Positions 1 to 46,835 of a stretch of 54,813 bases of DNA are shown here, in pieces (positions within the stretch are counted from its first letter, which is position 1; each line of letters begins with the position of its first letter). The translations under genes and the position numbers were made by a program. The stretch is taken from positions 1-54,813 of the forward strand of contig NZ_JAAHHW010000041.1 of the NCBI RefSeq assembly GCF_010692325.1, in the 5' to 3' direction. Under the pieces are notes generated by a model. It was given only the letters and a program-made list of their open reading frames with translations, had not been told where the DNA came from and made no database searches. The DNA comes from Moorena sp. SIO3I8 (GTDB taxonomy: Bacteria > Cyanobacteriota > Cyanobacteriia > Cyanobacteriales > Coleofasciculaceae).

Positions 1-126
1 CTTAATTCTTAATTCTTAATTCTTAATTCTTAATTCTTAATTCTTAATTCTTAATTCTTAATTCTTAATTCTTAATTCTTAATTCTTAATTCTTAATTCT
101 TAATTCTTAATTCTTAATTCTTAATT
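1..126. repeat. Heptanucleotide tandem array (CTTAATT)n
   Basis: About 18 perfect copies of the 7-bp unit CTTAATT run from the window edge. The array overlaps the 3' end of the next gene: the TAA stop at 107-109 and the last codons of the McrB-like gene are made of repeat units. It belongs to the STRR type of short tandem repeats known from filamentous cyanobacteria. The array may extend left beyond the window. Confidence 0.95.
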
Positions 127-1723
127 TTATAGTGTCCCAGCGAAATTGGTCTAGTTTATCCCGTTGATCGAAAAAGTATTCTTCTAGATATGGCTCAATT
201 TCCCTTTGCCAGATATCTTCAATTTCTTCAGCTATATTTTCTAGTAGAAAGAAAGAGATTCCCAGGGAGTAGTTAGGATCTGCGATCGCATTATTTATTT
301 GTTCGAGTATCTTAATCAATCCATTAACTGGAAAATCCGTTGTTTGGTGATATCGTCTCAGGATTTCATAGTTGGGATAGAGCCGAATAAACGCGAAGCG
401 ACGGCGAAATGCCTGATCAACTAGAGCAATAGAACGGTCTGCTGTGTTCATAGTACCGATGATCCGAACATTTTTCGGGATACTGAATAGTTGATTACTG
501 CCAGCTAAGGGAATTTTTTGATCCCGGTACTCTAGTAGATACAATAATTCTCCAAACACACTAGCGAGGTTAGCACGATTAATTTCATCGATGATTAGAA
601 CACAAATTCCTTGCCGAGACTCAGCTTTATTACAGAATTCTATAAATCTGCCTGGAACTAAAGGATATCTCAATTCCCCATTTTGACTTTGTGGACGGAT
701 ACCTTGAATAAAGTCTTCATAGGAATAGGCAGGATGGAATTGGACAAGTTCTGTGAATCCATCAGTTCCACTGATTAAATGGTTAGCAATTTTTTGAGCA
801 GTATAGGTTTTACCTGTACCTGGTGGGCCGTAAAAAATTCCTTGTCCTTTGCGTTCAATAGCACGTATCCATCCCTCTAACTCTGCGATATCAAAACCAG
901 TATCTTTAGCACAGTCGCTTACCGTATAGTCCTCTGGTAACGCCATCCTTGAACCATCAGAGGTAAATTCGATAACCTCGTCTTGACCGGAAAAATTATA
1001 CCCTTTAACCGCAACCAACCAGTAGCAAAACATATCGAATAAATCATTATTCCTGAGCACTGGTACACCCGGTTGATGCATAGTGTTATCTAATGCTTTA
1101 ATCAGCTTCAATCCTGTAGCATTGGCCGCTGGATAATCTGTCAGTCTCTTTCCGTAGGATGTATTAACAAAATAATTGATAACCTGTCGAGAATTATCAT
1201 TAATTAACAAAAACCTATCTGGTTGCAGCCCATTGAGGAGATTCGTCAGCATTTCCGTCGGAAAACCTTTGGAGTATTCCCCTGTATAAAACTGATCACA
1301 AGCTGCTGATAACTGATTAGGATGCTTAGTGCAGCAACCAACAAATTCAAGGATGTCGTAACCAATCTGCTCTACTAACCTTTGTATCCATTTATGCTGA
1401 TATTTCAGTTTTAATGGCAATCGTAATTCTAAATAATTATCACGTTTTCTAGGAATAGTTAGTATCCATGAATCATCACCCTCACCATATTGACTATTCA
1501 ACGTAATCGCCAATTCTCTATCAGGGAATAGCTGAAACAGGATCGGTTCTGTTATAGCTTCTCCAGAGTCCACCATAGCAGAGATGACTGCAAAATTACG
1601 ACACCAAAGGCGATGCTGATCTTTGTAGCTTGCCATGTGACTTAACCCAACCTGTGTGTAGGGATATGAACTGATAAATTCCTGAAATAGACTGACCAAT
1701 TCAGCTTTATTATCCCCCACCAT
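107..1723 (-). CDS. McrB-type AAA+ GTPase/ATPase, restriction-like motor
   Basis: This is the NTP-driven motor of an McrBC-like modification-dependent restriction system; family members form a ring that translocates DNA and drives an McrC-type nuclease. Numbering from the GTG at 1732, Walker A GPPGTGKT is at about residues 302-309, Walker B LIIDEINRAN at about 379-388, and the McrB signature MNTADRS at about 428-434, followed by the sensor-like FRRRF. The first 290 residues hold no domain I can name; known McrB proteins carry a substrate-reading domain there. The ATG at 1723 is preferred over GTG 1732 because AGGTGG lies 5 nt upstream. The stop lies inside the heptamer array, so the C-terminal few residues (about LRIKN) come from repeat DNA. 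Any mcrC partner would be to the left, outside the window. The upstream ASCH and GNAT-PIN genes run in the same direction. Confidence 0.88.
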   Translation of the reverse strand: MVGDNKAELVSLFQEFISSYPYTQVGLSHMASYKDQHRLWCRNFAVISAMVDSGEAITEPILFQLFPDRELAITLNSQYGEGDDSWILTIPRKRDNYLELRLPLKLKYQHKWIQRLVEQIGYDILEFVGCCTKHPNQLSAACDQFYTGEYSKGFPTEMLTNLLNGLQPDRFLLINDNSRQVINYFVNTSYGKRLTDYPAANATGLKLIKALDNTMHQPGVPVLRNNDLFDMFCYWLVAVKGYNFSGQDEVIEFTSDGSRMALPEDYTVSDCAKDTGFDIAELEGWIRAIERKGQGIFYGPPGTGKTYTAQKIANHLISGTDGFTELVQFHPAYSYEDFIQGIRPQSQNGELRYPLVPGRFIEFCNKAESRQGICVLIIDEINRANLASVFGELLYLLEYRDQKIPLAGSNQLFSIPKNVRIIGTMNTADRSIALVDQAFRRRFAFIRLYPNYEILRRYHQTTDFPVNGLIKILEQINNAIADPNYSLGISFFLLENIAEEIEDIWQREIEPYLEEYFFDQRDKLDQFRWDTIKLRIKN

Positions 1724-1879
1724 ACTATCCACCTAATTTTTTTTATTATAACATGTTTGAGACATTAGAGACTGTTAGTTAGTTAGTCATTGATTCTCAG
1801 TAATGGGTTATTGGCTTGCTATTATCCATTATCGATTCTCCATGACCCATTCCAAAATACCTTCTTAGCAAATATTTAG

Positions 1880-2341
1880 CTAATTGATATAAGGCTCTGA
1901 CATAATTGCCATTTTATCCTCTACAATAGACTTAAGATGCTCAAATTGACTAGTCGTCAAGTAATGATAAGATTGTGGAGGTCTAAAGTTAGCCCATTTT
2001 GCTCTCAAATCTTGTAAGGTTACTGGTGGCTCAAAATGTTCTATGAGTTTTAAGCAAATCCCATAACCGACGGCGGCTTCCTCATAATACTCATTAAAAT
2101 CTTTTTTTTCTATACCAGCATTGTCCTTTACTTTATACCAAAGGATATCCGGGCGGTCTTGAATAACGTCTTCCACTTCAAAAAAACCCGATAAAACCTT
2201 ATCTGGAGCCGAGACATAAACCACAACAATATCCCCTGGTACTAATCGAGGACGCACCCGACGAAGTTCAATTTTTTTGGTTCCCTTGAATAATTGATTA
2301 GCATATTTAGGACGAATTGATAATAACAACACATTGGGCAT
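1880..2341 (-). CDS. ASCH-domain (PUA-like fold) protein
   Basis: A small protein of about 153 residues. Its N-terminal part (LLLSIRPKYANQLFKG, then IELRR and PGDIVVVYVSAP) matches the ASCH superfamily pattern; ASCH and EVE domains share the PUA-like fold and bind RNA or modified nucleotides. ASCH/EVE-type domains recur beside McrB motors as readers of modified bases, so a reader role in the neighbouring system is plausible but inferred. The ATG at 2341 is preferred; a GTG three codons upstream (2350) is possible. The start lies about 20 bp after the stop of the GNAT-PIN gene, which suggests one transcript. The C-terminal 60 residues carry no motif I recognise. Confidence 0.75.
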   Translation of the reverse strand: MPNVLLLSIRPKYANQLFKGTKKIELRRVRPRLVPGDIVVVYVSAPDKVLSGFFEVEDVIQDRPDILWYKVKDNAGIEKKDFNEYYEEAAVGYGICLKLIEHFEPPVTLQDLRAKWANFRPPQSYHYLTTSQFEHLKSIVEDKMAIMSEPYIN

Positions 2342-2362
2342 TGTTAACACGAGTAATTTTGA

Positions 2363-4471
2363 TTAATTTTGGGTGCATTCTCTATATATTATTGTAAATT
2401 GTTCTTGAGAAATCCGCAACGGTGATTGAAGTGTTAAACGCTTACCAAGTATTTCTTGAATTTCAGGCAAATCTATAGGATTTTTAAACAGTTCAGTATC
2501 ACTAAATCGAAGCGCCATCAGCTTTTTATTAGGATCAGTTTTGGTAAGCTTCATTAAATCTTCTAATTCATATACACCCAATCGTCGAAACTGTTGATGG
2601 AGATTTTTAGGTTTATTTACGACTACTTCATCAAGTCTAGAGCACGCTCTTACCTTTCCTGTGCCGCAATACTTTTTATTATAGCTTACATACCAAAGAA
2701 TTCTACCAACAACCCCTGGTTTTAAGCCACCATTACCTCGATGGCTTCGATAATAGACAAGTTCACGTTTTAGCGCCAGATCAGTTTCCGATCTCCATAG
2801 GAGCTGGTTAGCTAAGTCTTCATCGAATAATTCTTTCGCCCATTCTGCTTGAATAGGAATGATTATAGTAGGAAGATCAGCATCAATAATTTTTGCTGGC
2901 CACAGTATGCGTTCAACGTCTAGCGTTGTTTTTACCGCTGTGGTTAATTTATCAGTTTTGAGGGTATCAGCAATTTTTAGGCAAAAGTTATAATCTTGAC
3001 TTCGATTCGCTAAAGTAGTGAGATAGTCTGATAATTCTGTCGCCGTAACCGCAACGGCAAGATTGGCATTTAAATAACCATCCTTAACTTTAAAAAATGC
3101 ATCATCTTGAATACCGCTAAGAATAGTGTGATCCAAATAAGGTTCAGTAATTCGTGTAAATGGCAGATTTTCACGTACTGACAGGGATATAAACCAAAAA
3201 ATTAAGTGCCGCGCCAGGGTTTCTTCAAGAGGACCAGATCTAACCCGAAAAATTGGCACGTTTAACTCATGATTTTTATGAGTATGATACGCAATTAAAG
3301 CTAGGGGATTTTTTTCTGACTGGAGAATAATATAACACTTAAATTTATCGGGATTAGCAATAATATAGCCCAGCCTTCCTTGAAAATTACTAAGTTTTTC
3401 TCCCTTAGCACCAACCAAAAACGTTTCACTCAAAAAACGTACTTGATCAAATTTATGAACACGTTGTCTAGTGATACCTGTGCCTGCTAATCGTACAGGC
3501 TGATAGTTAATATATTCGTGAAGATAATCTAGCTTAACAATTAAACTAGTAGGACTAAGGATTGATAAGTTAAATTCCTCATTGATAGCATCTGCGATCG
3601 CTAGTATTTGTGAATTACGAGTCAAAAAAAATGGTGCATCTGAAGCTATGGCTATAGCTAACTGACGCAGTTCAGATTTATTGAGAGTTATCTGAGTTGA
3701 TAACAAAACCTTGGTTAGAGCGCGACAAGCTGTTTGAAAGTCTTTCTGATTGTAAGGGAGTTGAGTAAAGGTATCGGCTAACTGGCGTTTACCATTCCTT
3801 TGTTTAGTATCATCAATACTATTGATGACCTTAAATATTTCATTAGTTATACATAACTCCAAGTCAGGTTGTAACCAATCAGCTAGTAGAGAGTCGGATT
3901 CGGCCTTTGACCTAGCTTCATCTCCTTGCAAGTCAAAAAACACGCTGGTATCAATGACTGCACACAATTTAGACTCAAGTTTTTGGGTAGCAACCGTAGA
4001 AAATAGGGTAGGATGGTCGTGATCCCGCCACCAAACGGTAAGTAGTTTTCCATCCTTGCTCCTTCCGGGTTTTTCAGCCAAAGGAACAAAGTCTAAGTGA
4101 GACCACATTTTCTCTAATCCATAATCACGACGGCATTTGAGTTTAATGCCGTAAAAGTCCTGAGTATTCTGACTTAGATAATTAACCAGCTTCTTAGCAA
4201 TACCGTTACCACGCCATGATGGCTCGATGCATAGATGAACAATAACGATGATATTATGTCTACGCACCTTCCGGTATAACAAATAACCGGTACACTTTTT
4301 TTCAGGAGTAAGCGCCACAAGTATTTGACCACTTAGTGCGTGTTGATCAAACGCTCCTTCAGGAAAATGACCAAGAGTGGTTGCGTGTGCTCGTCCCAAA
4401 GCCTTGACTGTCCTTAGGTGCAGGGATTTTTCATCAATTGTTTCAATTTGAAGCTGTATCTCTTGTGTCAC
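2363..4471 (-). CDS. GNAT acetyltransferase-PIN domain fusion protein
   Basis: A large protein of about 700 residues with three visible parts. Numbering is from the TTG at 4486. Residues 1-155 form a GNAT acetyltransferase domain with the acetyl-CoA loop RGNGIA at about 92-97. Residues about 175-320 form a PIN-like nuclease domain with acidic positions in VIDTSVFF (D179), NEIF and ASDAPFFLTRN; the last usual Asp (TRD) is Asn here. Residues about 330-500 may be a second acetyltransferase-like fold, and the rest is unassigned. A TTG at 4486 opens the frame inside a TAATTGG repeat, so the GTG at 4471, just past the repeat, is preferred. It is the first gene of a same-strand group with the ASCH and McrB genes. 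A toxin- or defence-type role is inferred from PIN and GNAT families; no substrate is known. Confidence 0.7.
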   Translation of the reverse strand: MTQEIQLQIETIDEKSLHLRTVKALGRAHATTLGHFPEGAFDQHALSGQILVALTPEKKCTGYLLYRKVRRHNIIVIVHLCIEPSWRGNGIAKKLVNYLSQNTQDFYGIKLKCRRDYGLEKMWSHLDFVPLAEKPGRSKDGKLLTVWWRDHDHPTLFSTVATQKLESKLCAVIDTSVFFDLQGDEARSKAESDSLLADWLQPDLELCITNEIFKVINSIDDTKQRNGKRQLADTFTQLPYNQKDFQTACRALTKVLLSTQITLNKSELRQLAIAIASDAPFFLTRNSQILAIADAINEEFNLSILSPTSLIVKLDYLHEYINYQPVRLAGTGITRQRVHKFDQVRFLSETFLVGAKGEKLSNFQGRLGYIIANPDKFKCYIILQSEKNPLALIAYHTHKNHELNVPIFRVRSGPLEETLARHLIFWFISLSVRENLPFTRITEPYLDHTILSGIQDDAFFKVKDGYLNANLAVAVTATELSDYLTTLANRSQDYNFCLKIADTLKTDKLTTAVKTTLDVERILWPAKIIDADLPTIIIPIQAEWAKELFDEDLANQLLWRSETDLALKRELVYYRSHRGNGGLKPGVVGRILWYVSYNKKYCGTGKVRACSRLDEVVVNKPKNLHQQFRRLGVYELEDLMKLTKTDPNKKLMALRFSDTELFKNPIDLPEIQEILGKRLTLQSPLRISQEQFTIIYRECTQN

Positions 4472-4472
4472 G

Positions 4473-4511
4473 TTACCAATTACCAATTACCAATGGCCAA
4501 TTACCAATTAC
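4473..4511. repeat. Heptamer array (TACCAAT)n
   Basis: Five to six imperfect copies of TACCAAT/GGCCAAT lie directly against the start codon of the GNAT-PIN gene. The repeat therefore forms its 5' untranslated leader and leaves no room for a normal Shine-Dalgarno sequence. Confidence 0.8.
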
Positions 4512-4557: not shown

Positions 4558-4935
4558 TTACTGGTTAGAAGGAAACCACTTTTGCTCTAGGTTGGTCAGT
4601 TCTCCGTCTTCCTGTAATTGCAAAATAATTCGGTTGATTGGCTCACGATAATGGCTACCTTGAGGCAAAACTATGCCGTAGTCTTGTTCAGCAAACAACT
4701 CACCTACAATCTGGTATTCTCGGTTTTGTGACGTTTGGTAAAGTAACGTTGGTGAATCATAAACTAGAGCCTGCACTTGCCCCGCTTTGAGAGCTTTGTA
4801 TGCATCTTCCAGCTGCTCAAATTCAATTAGCTTGACTGGCTGTTGATTCATATATCTGGCAGAGGTCGTGTCTGCGACAGTACCAACCTGTTTTCCGAAT
4901 AGATCGATAAGATCAGAAATATTCGATTCAAGTAG
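4558..4935 (-). pseudogene. 5'-truncated SBP_bac_3-type solute/glutamate-receptor-like binding domain
   Basis: The open frame runs from just after an in-frame TAA (4936-4938) to the stop at 4558 without a start codon before codon 30; the only ATG, at 4851, is internal to the fold. The reading ISDLIDLFGKQVGTVADTTS, then LVYDSPTLLYQ, QDYGIVLPQGS and LEQKWFP matches the second half of a periplasmic amino-acid-binding domain (PF00497), as found in ABC transporter receptors and in cyanobacterial GluR0-type potassium channels. The N-terminal lobe, signal peptide and any channel segment are missing, so this is a remnant. Whether it came from a transporter receptor or a channel cannot be decided from this piece. 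Confidence 0.75.
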
Positions 4936-6774: not shown

Positions 6775-8232
6775 TCAAATCCCGTTGAGGAGTTGCTTGA
6801 AAGCCTTAGCCAAGGTATGCTTACAATCAAGCCAACCAAGCTCGACTGCATCTAGCAGGCTAAGCCCCATCCCTTTCAAGAAACGCGCGGTACGACGCAA
6901 CAACACTGCTTGAACCTCGGTTTTATTCATGTACCGAGTTATTTCCTTGTCGGTACCGCGAGCAAGGATGTTCTTGGCAGCATTGCAATCAGCCTGTAAC
7001 ACGACCCCATCAAATCCGGTAAAATTGTCCCCAGTCCTTTTCCCCAACAGGGTTCCATTCCTAGAGTCAATTTGCGACGTGTAACTAGGTTGAACTTCTG
7101 TGACAACCGAGCCAGTCCAATCAGCCCATTTCTGCAAAGAATCCCGCATAACTCCTTTCATCCAACTATTGAGTTTGCGGGACACGGCCTTAGACTGACG
7201 CTTATTTCGGTACGGTTGTGTTAAATCTTCCGCAAAAACCTTTAAAGATTCCCCATTAAAAAGAGACTTAGAGGCTGCTCCTATTATCGCCGTCAGTTCT
7301 GATTGATTTTTTCTGTAGCGGCGATTTTCGGTTTTTCTGGTCAGATTATTTTCTAATATTCGAGCTGATTTGGCCTGGTCGATTTTTTCTAGTTTTCTAT
7401 GAAGTGCCCAAAGCTTCCCTCTGTTTCGGTTTTTTGCACATATTCGTTTCTGTTTCTGGGTGGTTACTTCCCCTAGTTCTTTTCCGTGAGCTTGCCCCTC
7501 TGAGTCATAGAAAGCCTCAGTGTAACCCTTGTCTACTCCTAGACTCCGACGTTCAGATTTAATTTCTACAGTTCCATGATCTACTAGAAAGTGAATCTCA
7601 AATCTTGGCAAAAGTTGGTTATATATCAGTCTGATCTGGCCTTTTATTGTACGATTAGACCTAACAACTATCCTGTTCCTTTTCCCTCTAGTGAGTCCAG
7701 CTAGTTCTAACTGGTAAGTATTACGGGAAAGCTTTTTACACTTATAACCTACTTGTTGATAAACTATCTGGTTTTTACCCCAAGAATGTCCCCGCTGAAA
7801 CTCCTTCCTAACAAGTCTGTGGAGAAGTGGCGTGTCCAGAAAGGCTAAAGTCTTAAGTTGTTTGCAAAGTTCCTTCCGTTCGTTCTGGTTATCTTTTCCA
7901 GGAAACCTTTTGTAAACCTTTTTAATTACCGCTTCGGTGCAAGCTGCCTGCTGAGCCGTAATGGCTTTGGCTACATCGCTTACAGTCCATTCCATCAATT
8001 TGGAAGGTAGTCCCAAGGATTCAGGAGTCCTAAAACTCCTAACTTTTGGGTAAGCTTTTTTCCAATCAAGTTCCCAATGACTTATGCTGCCTAGCTTGTT
8101 GTAGGATTCAGACCTGACAATGCCCAATTTCTTCATCGTGGACAACAACTCAAGTTCAACCGACTCAGTCATCCCTACTACAGGGACAATCTGGGTTGAT
8201 ATTTTCTTGGTCATTCCTACTTTTTTGGGCAT
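6775..8232 (-). CDS. Divergent TnpB-family RNA-guided nuclease without zinc finger
   Basis: A 485-residue TnpB relative. Numbering from the TTG at 8238, the RuvC triad is intact: LGVDKGYTEAF (D236), VFAEDLTQPY (E337) and LQADCNAAKNIL (D417). Between RuvC-II and -III, where canonical TnpB proteins have a CxxC...CxxC zinc ribbon, this protein reads SYTSQIDSRNGTLLGKRTGD with no Cys pairs. The N-terminal 200 residues are rich in Lys/Arg, as expected for guide-RNA binding. The protein is longer than the usual 380-410 residues and has a roughly 60-residue C-terminal tail after the last motif. ATG 8232 is chosen over TTG 8238. No tnpA transposase and no CRISPR array lie next to it. Family members cut DNA under guide-RNA control and help retain or home the element. 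Confidence 0.82.
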   Translation of the reverse strand: MPKKVGMTKKISTQIVPVVGMTESVELELLSTMKKLGIVRSESYNKLGSISHWELDWKKAYPKVRSFRTPESLGLPSKLMEWTVSDVAKAITAQQAACTEAVIKKVYKRFPGKDNQNERKELCKQLKTLAFLDTPLLHRLVRKEFQRGHSWGKNQIVYQQVGYKCKKLSRNTYQLELAGLTRGKRNRIVVRSNRTIKGQIRLIYNQLLPRFEIHFLVDHGTVEIKSERRSLGVDKGYTEAFYDSEGQAHGKELGEVTTQKQKRICAKNRNRGKLWALHRKLEKIDQAKSARILENNLTRKTENRRYRKNQSELTAIIGAASKSLFNGESLKVFAEDLTQPYRNKRQSKAVSRKLNSWMKGVMRDSLQKWADWTGSVVTEVQPSYTSQIDSRNGTLLGKRTGDNFTGFDGVVLQADCNAAKNILARGTDKEITRYMNKTEVQAVLLRRTARFLKGMGLSLLDAVELGWLDCKHTLAKAFKQLLNGI

Positions 8233-8403
8233 CGTCAAACCTGAGTCAATTACTTCAATGATACTCTAGCGCTAGTCAAATGTCAATGTCCATTTTATAG
8301 GATTAAATACCGATTTATACCTATTTTTAGGGGTTTAATTGCGAGGCAACTATTCCTGACTGGATTCTAGCCTTCAATTGCGATTATCATCTATGGCAGG
8401 TAA

Positions 8404-8492
8404 GCCTATGGGCTACAGATGGTGCTACAGATGGTGCTATCAGCGTGTCGCGTATCAGCCTATGGGCTACAGATGGTGCTACAGATGGTGCT
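8404..8492. repeat. Two 35-bp direct repeats, 54-bp period
   Basis: A 35-bp sequence starting GCCTATGGGCTACAGATGG occurs at 8404-8438 and again, identically, at 8458-8492. Each copy contains an internal duplication of TACAGATGGTGC. The spacer includes GTGTCGCGTATCA. The rest of the 460-bp gap between the TnpB gene and the tRNA shows no gene. Confidence 0.85.
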
Positions 8493-8645
8493 TTTGAATA
8501 AGCTATGCAGCCTGGTATTACCCGAGCACCAAGGAGAAGGCGAAACCCATTGAAGGGTATATTGCTTTCCGGGGCGGGGTGAGAGTTGAGGTGTAGGTGA
8601 TAAAGGGACTTTTTAAGGGGGATTTGGGAAAATTTTCCCCAGCAG

Positions 8646-8676
8646 TTGCAATAAAAGCTAAAATATATGCTATAAT
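8646..8676 (+). promoter_or_regulatory. Probable sigma-70-type promoter of tRNA-Leu
   Basis: TATAAT (8671-8676) lies 16 bp upstream of the mature tRNA 5' end. TTGCAA (8646-8651) is a fair -35 match, with a long 19-bp spacer. Confidence 0.5.
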
Positions 8677-8692
8677 TTAAATCGCAAGGTAC

Positions 8693-8774
8693 GCGGACGT
8701 GGCGGAATTGGTAGACGCGCTAGATTTAGGTTCTAGTGTCGCAAGACGTGAAGGTTCAAGTCCTTTCGTCCGCA
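8693..8774 (+). tRNA. tRNA-Leu (UAG)
   Basis: A full cloverleaf can be drawn: 7-bp acceptor stem GCGGACG/CGTCCGC, D-loop with TTGGTAG, anticodon stem CTAGA/TCTAG around the loop TTTAGGT (anticodon UAG, reading CUN codons), long class-II variable arm with GTCGCAAGACG as in all tRNA-Leu, and T-arm loop TTCAAGT. The discriminator base is A, as for Leu. CCA is not encoded. A palindromic repeat follows 5 bp downstream. Confidence 0.95.
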
Positions 8775-8779
8775 TCTAA

Positions 8780-8825
8780 AGGTGTGACCCAAGAGCGATT
8801 TACTCGCCCTAGGAGGCGCGCACCT
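8780..8825. repeat. 46-bp palindromic repeat relative (AGGTGTG...GCGCACCT)
   Basis: The layout is that of the 5256-5301 element, with ends AGGTGTGACCC and GCGCACCT and core AGCGATTTACTCGCCC. The core is shared with the copy at 32566-32610. It sits directly behind the tRNA and could act as a transcript end, but there is no T-tract. Confidence 0.7.
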
Positions 8826-8908
8826 AAGCAAATCAGGGTTATAGGTTTACAGAAACCAATAACCCTTAAGCAATTATTAGGGATTAGTTGTATTAGTGAC
8901 TATTGTCT

Positions 8909-9913
8909 TTAGCGGATAATTAGTGCCACCTTACCTGTCATGGAACCAGCTTCGATAGCGTTGTGAGCAGCAGCAGCTTCTTTGAGGGGAAACCGTTGGC
9001 TGAGGTGAATTTTCAGTTTACCTTCATCAATCCAATTAGCACACTGCTGGAGAATCTCGGTTTGGTGCTGTTGAGCTGTAGTGAGTCCTTTCAAGGCTGG
9101 GGTGAGCATGAGTTCTAGACTGATGCGCAAATTATGCGATCGCGCTGTCTTCAAATTACCTTCGGCTGGGTCTGGTTGGAGGATAGTCACAATATCGCCA
9201 TATACCCGCACTGCTTCACAGGTGTCATAAAAGGTTTTACCGCCCACAGTATCGAACGCCAAATCTACTCCCTCTCCCCCAGTCCAATCCAAGGCAGCTT
9301 TCACAAAGCTAGTTTGTTTGTAAAGGATAGGATAGTCAGCACCTAACTGACGCACTAATCTAGCTTTTTCTTGAGAACCGACAGTAGTACAAACCTCAGC
9401 ACCTTTGAGCTTAGCTAGCTGAATAGCAACGTGACCAACACCACCAGCACCTGCCTGAATCAGCACCTTTTGTCCTGCTTCCAACCGTCCTCGGTCATAC
9501 AATGATTCCCAGGCAGTGATCAGTACTAGAGGAGCAGCAGCCGCTTCAGGGAAGGAGAGGGATTTAGGCTTGTGGGCAACTAAGGACTGATCAACAACGG
9601 CTAGTTCGGCATAGTTACCCGTACCAGATAATCCTAATCCCCCAGCACAGAAATATACCTCATCACCCACCTGGAATTTCTGGACACCAGCACCAACAGC
9701 TTCTACCACACCAGCACCATCGCAGCCTAGGATAGCTGGCATTTGGTCACGGTAAAAGGTGCCTCTACGCCGCAGTTTGGTGTCAATGGGATTAACACCA
9801 GCAGCGTGAAGACGCACCAGGATTTCTGTGTCGTTTTTAATTTTGGGAGCTGGTACATCCTGAAGTTGTAGCACTTCAGGTGTACCAGGAGCAGTCATTA
9901 AAATGGCTTTCAT
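8909..9913 (-). CDS. Zinc-independent MDR oxidoreductase, quinone reductase-like
   Basis: A 334-residue member of the medium-chain dehydrogenase/reductase superfamily, close to NADPH:quinone oxidoreductase. The GroES-like domain includes GCDGAGVVEAVGAG (about 64-77). The Rossmann nucleotide-binding motif is AGAGGVGHVAIQLAK (about 154-168). The structural zinc Cys cluster of alcohol dehydrogenases is absent, which supports the quinone-reductase branch. Such enzymes reduce quinones or enones with NADPH in the cytosol; the actual substrate is unknown. The ATG at 9911-9913 is preceded by a TTGTTAA heptamer array that fills the leader. No operon partner is obvious. Confidence 0.9.
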   Translation of the reverse strand: MKAILMTAPGTPEVLQLQDVPAPKIKNDTEILVRLHAAGVNPIDTKLRRRGTFYRDQMPAILGCDGAGVVEAVGAGVQKFQVGDEVYFCAGGLGLSGTGNYAELAVVDQSLVAHKPKSLSFPEAAAAPLVLITAWESLYDRGRLEAGQKVLIQAGAGGVGHVAIQLAKLKGAEVCTTVGSQEKARLVRQLGADYPILYKQTSFVKAALDWTGGEGVDLAFDTVGGKTFYDTCEAVRVYGDIVTILQPDPAEGNLKTARSHNLRISLELMLTPALKGLTTAQQHQTEILQQCANWIDEGKLKIHLSQRFPLKEAAAAHNAIEAGSMTGKVALIIR

Positions 9914-9915
9914 TG

Positions 9916-9972
9916 GTCATTTGTTAATTGTTAATTGTTAATTGTCAATGATCAATGGTCAATTTTCAATTA
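9916..9972. repeat. Degenerate heptamer array (TTGTTAA / TCAATGG)n
   Basis: TTGTTAA-type units followed by drifting TCAATGA/TCAATGG/TCAATTT units lie in the 5' leader of the oxidoreductase gene. Confidence 0.7.
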
Positions 9973-10028
9973 ACTTTAGACAAAACCGCCATTGATGATT
10001 TGCCTTGATGATTTGCCTTTTACAGTGA

Positions 10029-10940
10029 TCATGCTGTACATAATTGTGCTGTAGTTTGACTATAGCGACAGGGATGGCTGAAGATTGCTTTAGGCTGGGA
10101 TTGGTGTTCTACTCGAAAGACATTGGCATAGAGATTAGCCAGGATTTGTTTACCAGAAAGGCTTCGGTCTAGGTAGGGCAATGCGGGTTTGATATAAGGA
10201 TAGACAACATTCCAGTAAAAGTTTGGGTAGTTCCGGCGTAAATCACCGGGATTACGATAGCCTAAAATCTGATTTTTCCCGATTTCTTCAAACTCGTAGA
10301 ACAAGGCACTAATTTTTTGTAAGTAGCGGGGATCAGCCAGCTGACCAATCAAATCTGCTGCTCTGACTAAACCAGGATAGTTAACCGTGTCTTGATGATC
10401 CTGATCATCAGGTACTGGGAAACGGGTTAATTCAATATTGTGCTTAATCTGCTTAGTATCAATCAGCAGGTGATTACCAAAGTGTTCATCAATAAACTGC
10501 TTACCCCGGTCTACATGGTAGGGAGTAAGGCTGGCATCAGTGGCACCTGTAGGGAGAGTAATCATAAAATTGTCTATTCCTGTGGCATACAATCCTTGGT
10601 CTGGTTGGTCTTGGCGACAGATGCCTTTGATATAGCCAATGTCATGGCACAACAAAGAGATAATCACGTGCAACCAGTCTTCACAGGAGACGCTCCCTTC
10701 GCAGATGTGCTTACCCCACAAGATTTCCTGTCCAACTATGGTGACTAGGACGGTGTGTTCAATGTTGTGATAAAGAGCGTCACTATTAGCAATATTTTCC
10801 AGAGCCATGTGGGTAGCCCAAGTAATCAGCTCACAGTAGTCTGATTTAAGGCTGCCGTAAGTGCTGTGGAAACCTGTCTGTAGGTTTTTAACACAGGTAT
10901 CAATGATTATCTCGGTAGGATTAAACATCATGCTAGACAT
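10029..10940 (-). CDS. HD-domain metal-dependent phosphohydrolase
   Basis: A 303-residue protein with an HD/PDEase-like metal site: YHNIEHT (about residues 58-64) gives the first His pair, SLLCHDIGYIKG (about 94-105) is the HD motif, and PYHVDRG and LVRAADLIGQLADP provide the distal His/Asp ligands. HD proteins of this type hydrolyse phosphomonoesters or cyclic phosphodiesters; the substrate here is unknown. The arrangement resembles cyanobacterial HD proteins annotated as metal-dependent phosphohydrolases. The ATG start at 10940 is clear. The gene is monocistronic, followed on its strand by the oxidoreductase gene about 115 bp away. No signal peptide or membrane segment is visible. Confidence 0.82.
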   Translation of the reverse strand: MSSMMFNPTEIIIDTCVKNLQTGFHSTYGSLKSDYCELITWATHMALENIANSDALYHNIEHTVLVTIVGQEILWGKHICEGSVSCEDWLHVIISLLCHDIGYIKGICRQDQPDQGLYATGIDNFMITLPTGATDASLTPYHVDRGKQFIDEHFGNHLLIDTKQIKHNIELTRFPVPDDQDHQDTVNYPGLVRAADLIGQLADPRYLQKISALFYEFEEIGKNQILGYRNPGDLRRNYPNFYWNVVYPYIKPALPYLDRSLSGKQILANLYANVFRVEHQSQPKAIFSHPCRYSQTTAQLCTA

Positions 10941-41291: not shown

Positions 41292-42524
41292 CTACGTAGA
41301 GGTTGGGGCTTCCAGTTTCACGGAAGAATGCCTTAACTTGGACGGGCGTCCACGTCTTGGTCTTACTTCTTCTCCACTAGCGTTGACCTCCCCCGTCCCA
41401 GAGGAGGATAGCATTCTGATACCTTCTGCTCTAATATTCTTAGCGGCATTACCATCTCTGTCATGATGAGTTCCACAACTTGGGCAAGTCCAAGTTCTGA
41501 CATCTAGTGGCAACTCTTTGATTCGGTAATGACAATTAGAGCAGGTTTTAGAACTGGGGAACCACCGGTCTATCTCAACCAATACCTTCCCTTCTTTTTC
41601 ACACTTATAAGACAGGAAGTTCACAAAGGTTCCCCAGCTTATATCAGATATTGCTTTAGCTAATTTATGGTTACGAACCATGCCCTTGACATTTAGGTTT
41701 TCAACTACTACTACTTGGTTGTTGTCAACTATTTTTCTGGATAGTTTGTGTAGGTAGTCTTGGCGGACATTTCCAATCCGTTCGTATACCTTAGCTACAA
41801 TCTTTCTGGCTTTTTTCCGTCCATTGCTTCCCTTTTTCTTTCGGGCGGCAATACGCTGTTTTTTGGCTAATTTTCGTTCGTATTTAGCTAGGTGTCTGGG
41901 ATTACCAAACTTAGAGGTCTTTTTGCCATCGTAAGTGATCGCAAAATCCTTGATACCCAAATCAATACCAATCACCTTCCCGTCGGTGGATGGCTTTATA
42001 TCGTCCGACTCATACTCCATCAACACAGAAGCGTAATACTTACCAGATGGAGTTTTACTAACTGTGACAGTTTTAATTTCCCCGTCTATTTCTCTGTGAA
42101 TTTTAGCCTTGATAACACCCAGTTTCCCGGGAAATTTTAAGCAGTAACCTACTTGTTTGACGTATTGTGGATACTGGATTGATTGGCGATGATGAAATGA
42201 TTTGAACCTAGGATATTTAGCCCTGCCCTCAAAAAAGTTTTGATAGGCACGACTAAGGTTGAGACTTACAGATTGTAAAACCTGAGAATAACAGTCTTTT
42301 AGCCAAACAGTTTTTTCATCTTTTTTGAGTTTTGGCAACATAGAATTGAGCGCAGACCGAGACAACCCTTTGCCGGTTTCCTTGTAAGTCTCTATACACT
42401 GATTTAATGCATAGTTCCACCACCAACGAGCACAACCAAAATGTTGAGCAAGTATCTGAACTTGCTCCTGCGTGGGGTAAATTCTGACTTTTACGGCTTG
42501 ATGGTTCACTGTCTTTGCACTCAT
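41292..42524 (-). CDS. tnpB: IS200/IS605-type TnpB RNA-guided nuclease
   Basis: A 410-residue canonical TnpB. An N-terminal HTH_OrfB part (KVRIYPTQEQVQILAQHFGC) is followed by the RuvC motifs GIDLGIKDFAI (Asp), VVVENLNVKGM (Glu) and HHDRDGNAAKNIRAEG (Asp), with a full zinc ribbon CSNCHYRIKE...CPSCG between the last two. All catalytic and zinc residues are present, so it may be active. No TnpA gene is adjacent, so the element would need TnpA in trans. ATG start at 42524; the hairpin at 41246-41270 marks the 3' side. Confidence 0.93.
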   Translation of the reverse strand: MSAKTVNHQAVKVRIYPTQEQVQILAQHFGCARWWWNYALNQCIETYKETGKGLSRSALNSMLPKLKKDEKTVWLKDCYSQVLQSVSLNLSRAYQNFFEGRAKYPRFKSFHHRQSIQYPQYVKQVGYCLKFPGKLGVIKAKIHREIDGEIKTVTVSKTPSGKYYASVLMEYESDDIKPSTDGKVIGIDLGIKDFAITYDGKKTSKFGNPRHLAKYERKLAKKQRIAARKKKGSNGRKKARKIVAKVYERIGNVRQDYLHKLSRKIVDNNQVVVVENLNVKGMVRNHKLAKAISDISWGTFVNFLSYKCEKEGKVLVEIDRWFPSSKTCSNCHYRIKELPLDVRTWTCPSCGTHHDRDGNAAKNIRAEGIRMLSSSGTGEVNASGEEVRPRRGRPSKLRHSSVKLEAPTST

Positions 42525-44718: not shown

Positions 44719-44970
44719 ATGGTGATTGTAGGCATACAAACAGTAATAGTTCCGTTCTTATGCATTAGCGATTGGACTGATGTCTTGGGATGGCTGAACT
44801 CTCAGTTACCCATCGATGGGCTAGTTTTGGCTCAAACTATTGAAGATCCAGATGTACTTGGTCAAATCAAGACGGCCTGGCAAAACTTTATTGATTCTGG
44901 TCAGGCTGCAGCGCTGGTGATTGGCTTAGTTGTTGGTTACTTATTCAGAAATCTAACTTCGTTTAACTAA
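44719..44970 (+). CDS. Small membrane protein upstream of argH, 3' end altered by repeats
   Basis: An 83-residue protein with a hydrophobic N-terminus ([14 protein letters not shown]) and a C-terminal membrane helix ([18 protein letters not shown]), separated by [18 protein letters not shown]. It resembles small conserved cyanobacterial proteins of unknown function. Its stop codon TAA (44968-44970) lies at the junction with the 105-bp repeat array. Without the array the frame would continue through [15 protein letters not shown] into argH. The original C-terminus therefore cannot be stated. It follows the phosphatase gene by 28 bp, possibly in one operon. Confidence 0.7.
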
Positions 44971-45388
44971 GGGAGTTGCGTGTAAAAAAAATACCAATTA
45001 AAGTAGGGTGGGCAAAGTTATCTTATCTAGAAGACTCATTTGAACCAAAATGTTTTTGCCCACCCTACAAGCTAAGGGAGTTGCGTGTAAAAAAAATACC
45101 AATTAAAGTAGGGTGGGCAAAGTTATCTTATCTAGAAGACTCATTTGAACCAAAATGTTCTTGCCCACCCTACAAGCTAAGGGAGTTGCGTGTAAAAAAA
45201 ATACCAATTAAAGTAGGGTGGGCAAAGTTATCTTATCTAGAAGACTCATTTGAACCAAAATGTTTTTGCCCACCCTACAAGCTAAGGGAGTTGCGTGTAA
45301 AAAAAATACCAATTAAAGTAGGGTGGGCAAAGTTATCTTATCTAGAAGACTCATTTGAACCAAAATGTTCTTGCCCACCCTACAAGCT
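44969..45388. repeat. Four 105-bp tandem repeats in ABAB pattern, flanked by a 20-bp duplication
   Basis: Four consecutive 105-bp units (unit starts GGGAG at 44971, 45076, 45181, 45286). Units 1 and 3 have TGTTTTTGCC where units 2 and 4 have TGTTCTTGCC, so the array arose by doubling of a 210-bp dimer. Each unit contains inverted GTAGGGTGGGCAAAG and TTGCCCACCCTAC. The 20-bp sequence AAATCTAACTTCGTTTAACT is present on both sides (44949-44968, 45389-45408). Unit length is 35 codons and one frame is open throughout, which produces a false N-terminal extension of argH. Confidence 0.97.
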
Positions 45389-45440
45389 AAATCTAACTTC
45401 GTTTAACTCGTCTTTTGTCCTTTATCTTGTTTCCAAAACT

Positions 45441-46835
45441 GTGACTGAGCAAAAAACCTGGAGTCAGCGATTTGAATCAGCGTTACATCCAGCAATTGCT
45501 TGCTTCAATGCCAGTATCGGCTTTGACATAGAACTGATTGAGTATGACATTACTGGTTCTGTAGCTCATGCCAAGATGCTTGCCCATACTGGCATTATTT
45601 CTGAGTCGGAAGCTCAGCAGCTGGTAGCTGGCTTAGAACAAATCCGCTCAGAATACCACCAAGGAAAATTTAACCCTGGTGTTGATGCGGAGGATGTACA
45701 CTTAGCTGTAGAACGCCGCCTTACTGATATTGTGGGTGATGTTGGCAAGAAGCTACATACAGCGCGATCGCGTAATGACCAAGTTGGTACGGATACCCGA
45801 CTCTACCTCCGGGAGCAGATTGATCAGATTCGTAGCCAGTTACGTCACTTCCAAGAGGTCTTGCTCAATCTTGCCAAAGCTCATGTTGAAACCCTGATTC
45901 CTGGCTATACTCACCTGCAACGGGCTCAGCCAGTCAGTTTAGCCCATCACCTGTTAGCTTACGTAGAAATGCTAGAGCGGGACTGGCAGCGTTTAGGGGA
46001 AATCCGACGGCGGGTGAATATCTCACCCCTCGGTTGTGGGGCATTAGCAGGGACTACCTTCCCCATTGACCGACATCATACCGCCAAAACCTTGCATTTT
46101 GAAGGAATTTATGGTAATAGCCTCGATGGAGTAAGCGATCGCGACTTTGCCATTGAATTCCTCTGTGCTGCCAGTTTGATCATGGTACATCTGAGCCGAT
46201 TTTCAGAGGAAATCATTCTCTGGGCATCTCAGGAATTTGGCTTTGTTACTCTCCTGGATAGTTGTGCTACTGGTTCTAGCATCATGCCCCAAAAGAAAAA
46301 TCCTGATGTTCCCGAACTGGTACGAGGTAAGACTGGTCGTGTCTTTGGTCATCTACAAGGGTTGTTAGTTTTGATGAAAGGGCTACCTTTGGCTTACAAC
46401 AAAGACTTGCAAGAAGACAAAGAAGCACTGTTTGATAGCGTTAACACTATCAAAGCCTGTCTCGAAGCCATGACCATTCTCTGGCAGGAAGGGTTAGAAT
46501 TTCGTAGCGAACGTCTAGCATCAGCAGTTACTGAAGATTTCTCTAACGCTACCGATGTCGCTGACTATTTAGCCTCAAAAGGGGTTCCGTTTCGGGAAGC
46601 CTACAATCTGGTGGGTAAGGTGGTCAGAGGTTGTTTGGGATCCGGGAAGTTACTGAAGGATTTGAGCCTTGAACAGTGGCAAGCGTTGCATCCAGCCTTT
46701 GCAGAGGATATTTATCAAGCCATTGCCCCGACTCAAGTCGTCGCTCGTCGGAATAGTTATGGTGGCACTGGTTTTGACCAGGTTAGGCGAGGGATTCAGG
46801 ATGCATGCGATCGCCTAATTTCTAATAATGATTGA
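45441..46835 (+). CDS. argH: Argininosuccinate lyase
   Basis: The enzyme cleaves argininosuccinate to arginine and fumarate, the last step of arginine synthesis. About 464 residues from GTG 45441 ([18 protein letters not shown]), matching the family N-terminus. Signature motifs: [34 protein letters not shown] and [20 protein letters not shown]. The open frame extends upstream to 44976 through the 105-bp repeats, but those 155 residues are repeat translation and not part of the enzyme. No good ribosome binding site precedes the GTG; the leader TCGTCTTTTGTCCTTTATC is low in complexity. Expression may depend on readthrough from the upstream gene. Confidence 0.95.

Follow-up and report, generated by a model that had tools for sequence, protein, structure and literature searches.

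GNAT-PIN, ASCH and one end of McrB as an apparent exchangeable cassette of an otherwise ordinary McrBC system

What do a GTPase motor of the McrB type, an ASCH-domain protein and a fusion of a GNAT acetyltransferase with a PIN-like domain do side by side, and which nuclease do they serve? The question is raised by a contig of 54,813 bases from Moorena sp. SIO3I8 (C346 in our numbering, NZ_JAAHHW010000041.1, hereafter the window; the genome is in 510 contigs), whose left end carries the three genes, all on the minus strand. The GNAT-PIN gene (2363..4486 with a TTG start at 4486, or a GTG start at 4471, the end given in the initial annotation) encodes a protein of 707 amino acids (aa) in which GNAT, PIN-like, middle and ASCH-like domains are fused. 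Its stop codon lies 21 base pairs (bp) before the ATG of a stand-alone ASCH gene (PDC-M11B; 1880..2341 with the ATG start, 1880..2350 with a GTG start), and 147 bp separate the latter from mcrB (107..1732), a 541-aa open reading frame that joins an N-terminal domain of unmatched fold to an AAA+ GTPase. These coordinates, together with the AAA/McrB, ASCH and GNAT domain matches described below, confirm the initial annotation in its description of three same-strand genes and in its estimate of about 20 bp between the first two. The three genes are the front of a predicted four-gene cyanobacterial operon, GNAT-PIN / ASCH / McrB / McrC. Comparison of related loci suggests that GNAT-PIN, ASCH and one McrB end move together and form an exchangeable cassette, the rest being a McrB-McrC machine of the ordinary kind. 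Promoter-like sites (11, against a shuffle mean of 15.5) and terminator-like sites (2, against 2.9) were both fewer than in shuffled sequence.

Synteny across a repeat places the fourth gene. The window begins with a (CTTAATT)18 array (1..126; 18 copies at 100% in Tandem Repeats Finder), which encodes the last codons of mcrB (...LRIKN). The single McrC-type match in the same genome lies on another contig, C79, and is preceded by a 16-copy AATTAAG array. The M16 peptidase frame before the C79 array has 508 aa, against 547 aa in all three congeners, and contig C489 repeats residues 327-369 of the peptidase (98% identical) within a 134-aa frame. In two Moorena relatives, M. bouillonii (G002) and G003, mcrB, a short array of the CTTAATT unit and mcrC are contiguous, and in both genomes the 60 bases past the array are identical to C79 at 59 of 60 positions. 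At the congener loci L055 and L056, 3 and 5 copies of the unit separate mcrB from mcrC. In G001 the contig again breaks in the CTTAATT array, with mcrC on a different contig. On the simplest reading, C79 is a false join at the repeat and mcrC belongs directly left of the window; the heptamer array (about 19808-19919 of C79; 1107-1220 of L002) appears to cause the false join. Since the strain's own mcrC is on a separate contig, its adjacency to mcrB is taken from synteny and not from sequencing reads. The initial annotation was correct that mcrC is outside the window; the gene is not missing, as synteny sets it across the array. The mcrC gene of G003 has a reported in-frame stop, which is residue 393 of 394. 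Genome-wide, a 28-base pattern for CTTAATT heptamer arrays was matched 93 times in the forward and 87 times in the reverse direction, and the arrays run into gene ends: mcrB and the M16 peptidase both finish in ...LRIKN.

The motor and nuclease are of the McrBC type. McrB is matched by Pfam AAA_5 (E 1e-19) and by the NCBIfam McrB model (E 4.5e-41 over its last two thirds; 141 of 637 bits, under the cut-off). As an AAA+ protein with Walker A and B motifs and an NxxD signature, it has GPPGTGKT at residue 302, IDEINR at 381 and MNTADR at 428, the AAA core covering residues 299-449 (386..838, minus strand). An adjacent mcrC with PD-(D/E)xK residues is present in 15 intact quartets, including the congeners L055 and L056, and the residues D300, D316 and K318 (D-DxK) are kept in all 37 aligned McrC rows. 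The N-terminal domain of McrB (residues 1-270; 923..1732, minus strand) was matched by no Pfam family in more than one of 15 members and by no PDB chain, and these searches found no known modified-base reader fused to McrB. Across ten scanned McrB proteins, the only Pfam match of the alternative N-terminal parts at E<=0.01 was to TPR repeats in a single protein.

The gene order is recurrent. Searches by tblastn with the window and Calothrix proteins found the full, ordered, same-strand quartet with an unbroken GNAT-PIN gene in 15 further genomes (loci L041/L056, L042/L055, L044, L050/L094, L057, L058, L059, L060, L062, L095, L097, L099, L100, L101 and L103). It is also present at L046 in Moorena SIO3H5, where the end of the contig truncates GNAT-PIN, and at L104 in G290, where GNAT-PIN is split between two frames. 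The quartet is incomplete in the window and in G001, which both break in the array; in G081, whose contig breaks within mcrB (the other half starting contig C29); on a Nostoc CENA543 plasmid, where a shortened mcrB is followed by transposition genes; and in Scytonema, which lacks ASCH and mcrB. GNAT-PIN and ASCH therefore co-occur with McrB in other genomes, as the homologue search proposed by the initial annotation was to establish, and relatives with an adjoining mcrC hold the other two genes rather than lacking them, so that neither outcome named there as refuting the unit came about. At the Scytonema hyalinum locus (L045:10001-13068) the match to GNAT-PIN runs as far as residue 631, and only a few bases later the one to mcrC begins, which reflects either a deletion or an assembly artefact. 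In G290 (L104:8594-12807) a repeated 45-aa McrB end stands before mcrC, and on the Calothrix PCC 6303 plasmid (L050:5853-13557) the quartet comes immediately after genes for a cytosine methyltransferase and an endonuclease of the Eco29kI type.

The pair is also found without adjacent McrBC, in eight rows: G005, G056, G145 (with McrBC elsewhere in the genome), Electrothrix, two Streptomyces, Prevotella and Caulobacter. In G056 it lies (L063:6494-7414 and 7549-10166) 134 bp behind a Mrr restriction endonuclease (Mrr_N and Mrr_cat). Fragments in G011 and G019, a contig end in the SIO3H5 genome (L043) and the shorter, conventionally built protein of G143 are left out of the counts. Among 386 cyanobacterial genomes, GNAT-PIN was found at E<1e-100 in 15 (in two pieces in G290); most of a tally of 138 at E<=0.001 are GNAT-only matches, and these were left out. 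The McrC family was found at E<=1e-30 in 31 genomes, and the McrB N-domain (profile of residues 1-265) in 13, all of them among the 15 with GNAT-PIN; the other two are G056 and G145. McrC without a quartet was found in 19 genomes, and the McrC loci of 18 were compared (G020 was left out). Against the proteins of the 17 McrBC-only loci with an AAA part, one of whose McrB proteins is a 114-aa fragment, the N-domain matched nothing at an E value below 0.48; it is a domain dedicated to the quartet. No relatives were found in viral contigs or phage records, and in the phylum of the Streptomyces locus the only one of 376 genomes with a match at E<=1e-30 was the starting genome itself.

In three genera, a single site holds either the quartet or plain McrBC in sister genomes. 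Nine same-site comparisons, picked for shared flanks and not covering all pairs, were made: L095 with L151 and L153; L100 with L152, L154, L155, L157 and L168; and L103 and L104 with L165. Blocks of similarity were counted by blastn at >=120 bases and E<=1e-10. In all nine, upstream similarity stops before GNAT-PIN (by about 252, 55, 72 and 89 bp in L095, L100, L103 and L104, respectively), no such block lies over GNAT-PIN, ASCH or the McrB N-domain, and similarity resumes inside mcrB, at residue ~274, ~264-276, ~264 and ~261 in the same order, and continues through mcrC. The resumption point (~261-276) is where the N-terminal domain ends, and the blocks flanking the cassette are 84-98% identical. 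The gap in similarity and its McrB-internal edge indicate that GNAT-PIN, ASCH and the McrB N-domain move as one, whereas the AAA part of McrB stays with McrC. On a tree of 37 McrC rows the quartet label needs nine changes, at least six of them on well-supported branches. By homology with these three other genera, the edge in the window would fall at the junction of the N-domain and the AAA part (about residues 264-276; 905..943); exchange was not seen in Moorena itself. The recurrent gene order with McrC and the joint exchange support the link of McrB to the other two genes, which the initial annotation had offered as inference.

The small ASCH protein is matched by PF04266 (E 6.3e-5, above the cut-off) and by the PADLOC model PDC-M11B (7e-34), with K22, E25 and R27 invariant in all 14 aligned sequences. 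A YqfB-type amidohydrolase was considered for this protein and tentatively set aside: Glu 25 is invariant here, at a position where YqfB uses threonine. In the GNAT-PIN protein, the GNAT domain (residues 10-160; 4007..4459, minus strand) has the acetyl-CoA loop RGNGIA and an Acetyltransf_10 match above the cut-off (E 1.3e-7). The PIN-like domain (residues 170-325; 3512..3979, minus strand) is weak in the window protein, with PIN_3 under the cut-off at E 0.021 for the whole protein and 0.00066 as a domain; of 15 family members, 10 are matched by PIN_3 with E values no higher than 1, the best being 4.8e-6. The proposed fusion is thus confirmed in its GNAT part, and its PIN part is clearer in the relatives than in the window. 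The C-terminus (residues 520-707; 2366..2929, minus strand) is a second ASCH/PUA-like domain by hhalign against the small ASCH profile (97.7%, E 1.3e-12), and no Pfam family matches the window copy.

The middle domain (residues 332-480; 3047..3493, minus strand) occupies the position of GNAT in PIN-GNAT-EVE proteins. It has no Pfam GNAT match in the long form, and comparison of its profile with that of the first GNAT gave a probability of 0.2%. The window protein matches PDC-M11A (3.4e-7) only over residues 510-700; in the Prevotella relative, residues 163-649 align to positions 3-458 of 486, so the first 160 residues, which hold the Pfam GNAT, are extra. In the shorter conventional protein of G143, Pfam places a GNAT centrally (196-293). 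The identity of the middle domain as GNAT is not confirmed; the label would follow from the PDC-M11A alignment and the G143 protein. Of the order PIN-GNAT-PUA, the long form has a PIN-like and an ASCH-like domain, with a middle lacking a GNAT match and an extra GNAT in front. The AlphaFold model is weak (7 sequences, mean predicted local distance difference test (pLDDT) score 64.8, predicted template modelling (pTM) score 0.36), and unreliable in the C-terminal domain. Among the 50 PDB matches listed for it, the titles name acetyltransferases or complexes containing one, which probably match the first GNAT. Searches of PDB sequences with the C-terminal, middle, PIN and McrB N-domain profiles had no credible match.

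The PIN active site is decayed. Four acids (D, E, D, D), at positions that we take to be canonical from PIN domains such as VapC, were scored by alignment. The window protein keeps D179 and has V220, E272 and N291 instead of E, D and D, and so does not hold a catalytic PIN set. All four acids are kept in none of 20 McrBC-linked rows (which include the broken quartets of Nostoc and Scytonema), against six of eight pair-only rows; the second acid is E in 1/20 and 8/8, respectively. Of the pair-only rows, Caulobacter departs from the set by an E in fourth position, and G056 by C in the third and Q in the fourth. A single origin of the McrBC-linked group was not rejected on a tree built without the PIN columns (approximately unbiased test, p 0.31), and the decay is better explained by a single event, with constraint relaxed afterwards, than by correlated changes that occurred repeatedly. 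The GNAT loop, for which we assume the motif [RQ]xxGx[AG], survives in 14 of the 20 quartet rows and in four of eight pair-only rows. Because no McrBC-linked row keeps the four acids while D-DxK of McrC is intact throughout, PIN is unlikely as a substitute nuclease.

Parts of this locus have known counterparts. The available text of Bell 2020 (PMC7641849) describes (PIN)-GNAT-EVE proteins with ASCH partners near type I restriction-modification systems, CRISPR-Cas, AAA_17 ATPases and a COG1743/DUF499 system. It proposes roles akin to toxin-antitoxin (TA) systems for these operons, states that none of the modules is characterised, and calls the C-terminal domain EVE, a member of the PUA superfamily. 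Like those systems, the locus here combines in a single protein a PIN domain, a domain of GNAT type and, at the C-terminus, one of the PUA superfamily, and it has a separate ASCH gene and restriction-system neighbours. The present locus differs in a further GNAT at the N-terminus, a middle domain that no Pfam GNAT family matches, a decayed PIN and adjacent McrB-McrC, and McrBC is not among the neighbours named in that text. PDC-M11, a phage defence candidate in PADLOC, is similar in that both its models (M11A and M11B) are matched; the M11A models, 357-501 positions long, do not reach the first ~160 residues of the long form, and, judging by the model names, PDC-M11 has two components and no McrBC, whereas McrBC adjoins here. 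With McrBC type IV restriction the locus shares the AAA+ NxxD GTPase, the PD-(D/E)xK McrC and the variable McrB N-terminus; here the recognition cassette extends across three polypeptides and the N-domain matches no known reader. CoCoNuTs (Bell 2024, PMC11090510), one subtype of which is found mainly in Cyanobacteriota, are likewise elaborated McrBC systems. As defined in the available text of that paper they belong to an NxD branch with coiled coils, and membership was rejected, since the window McrB has MNTADR (NxxD). GNAT does not occur in the main text of Bell 2024 or in the available texts of PMC12707154 and PMC11037411 on restriction. GNAT-PIN/ASCH joined to McrBC is not described in the available texts of PMC7641849, PMC11090510, PMC10853773, PMC12707154 and PMC11037411, and among the literature matches listed, a scope that leaves preprints and supplements aside, no paper unites them. 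The pair alone is already known, and the GNAT-PIN subunit, for which the initial annotation knew of no described system, is in part described already. New here are the extra N-terminal GNAT, the decayed PIN, the dedicated McrB N-domain and the cassette behaviour.

On balance, and with some reserve, we favour a reading of the locus as the component that sets specificity in a type IV restriction system of four genes, a multi-protein recognition cassette for McrBC with a presumed antiphage role. McrB (NxxD GTPase motor) and McrC (PD-(D/E)xK nuclease) would be the chassis, and the GNAT-PIN-ASCH protein, the small ASCH protein and the McrB N-domain would form a complex acting as a single exchangeable recognition cassette. 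The two PUA-like ASCH domains (the fused one and the stand-alone one) may bind a modified base of incoming nucleic acid; the quartet-specific N-domain would dock this reader, upon which the McrB ring would translocate and McrC would cut. The PIN-like domain would no longer cut and could act as a scaffold or nucleic-acid grip. Because the GNAT loop is intact in most quartets, an acetylation step may license or tag the target. The pair-only locus behind Mrr, another restriction endonuclease, also argues for a recognition role. Several points weigh against this reading. The N-domain has no recognised fold, so docking is a guess, and the pair-only rows suggest that the pair can work alone. The scans scored at most three (GNAT-PIN) or six (McrB N-domain) first-look candidates per genome, so misses are possible. 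The PIN contrast amounts to only 1-3 independent evolutionary contrasts on the tree without PIN columns, and Fisher tests count related genomes as independent. Finally, loss of the GNAT loop in part of both groups means that acetylation may not be needed.

The main rival, which we consider unlikely, is a TA or abortive-infection unit riding with McrBC, in which GNAT (and formerly PIN) poisons translation, for example by tRNA acetylation, and ASCH restrains it until McrBC is defeated. Such a reading was given to the related operons in the available text of PMC7641849, and it agrees with the eight rows lacking adjacent McrBC, six of them with all four PIN acids, and with the Prevotella pair, which is preceded by an Eco57I-type methylase and by proteins of the AAA and HNH types. 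However, the quartet pair is exchanged along with the McrB N-domain, with an edge in the middle of mcrB that a neighbouring TA unit would not need, and PIN is decayed in quartets. Acetylation could also be central to restriction. In one version, quite improbable in our view, an acetyl mark is written and read by the GNAT-ASCH protein together with its ASCH partner, or an acetylated base triggers them, and they signal via the McrB docking domain to McrBC, the PIN ribonuclease having become a non-cutting scaffold once McrC took over cutting. In another, which we regard as very doubtful, GNAT writes an acetyl mark on DNA that distinguishes self from non-self, the ASCH domains read it, and McrBC cuts by its presence or absence. 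The retained GNAT loops and the two ASCH-type domains are consistent with this; DNA-base acetylation was proposed by Iyer et al., as told in Bell 2020 (PMC7641849), and the ASCH protein YqfB hydrolyses N4-acetylcytidine according to a review, so the fold can handle acetylated cytosine. Yet an acetylated DNA base is a supposition, nothing favours DNA over RNA or protein as substrate, and six of 20 quartet rows have lost the loop. That GNAT acetylates McrB or McrC as a check on the nuclease, with ASCH as regulator, is highly improbable: it agrees with the McrB N-domain being found only alongside GNAT-PIN, but accounts neither for the presence of two ASCH-type domains nor for a need of control limited to this one N-domain. 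The reading of the initial annotation, with PIN as the nuclease of a McrB-driven system without McrC, had mcrC outside the window in its favour; with mcrC set by synteny just past the broken array and the PIN acids decayed, PIN as the only nuclease was rejected, and we see almost no chance for it.

Other features of the window lie outside the quartet. A short solute-binding-protein fragment (SBP_bac_3, E 9.6e-5, under the cut-off) is found at 4558-4851; the relative L041 has, directly upstream of GNAT-PIN, a 209-aa frame with a channel-like TTVGYGDKSP stretch, so the fragment may be a broken channel gene. A 619-aa frame (44967-46835), whose later part resembles argininosuccinate lyase by eye, begins in a four-copy 105-bp tandem repeat, so that its first ~130 residues are repeats. 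Two frames (6775-8238 and 41292-42524) resemble TnpB/OrfB transposon proteins by eye.

If the locus is a recognition cassette, its natural exchange would tie the long-form GNAT-PIN to one function, target choice by McrBC, and would name McrB residues 1 to ~270 as the likely partner surface, with the same-site sister genomes with and without the cassette as ready controls. It also suggests a route by which a ribonuclease module may be recycled as a non-cutting recognition subunit.

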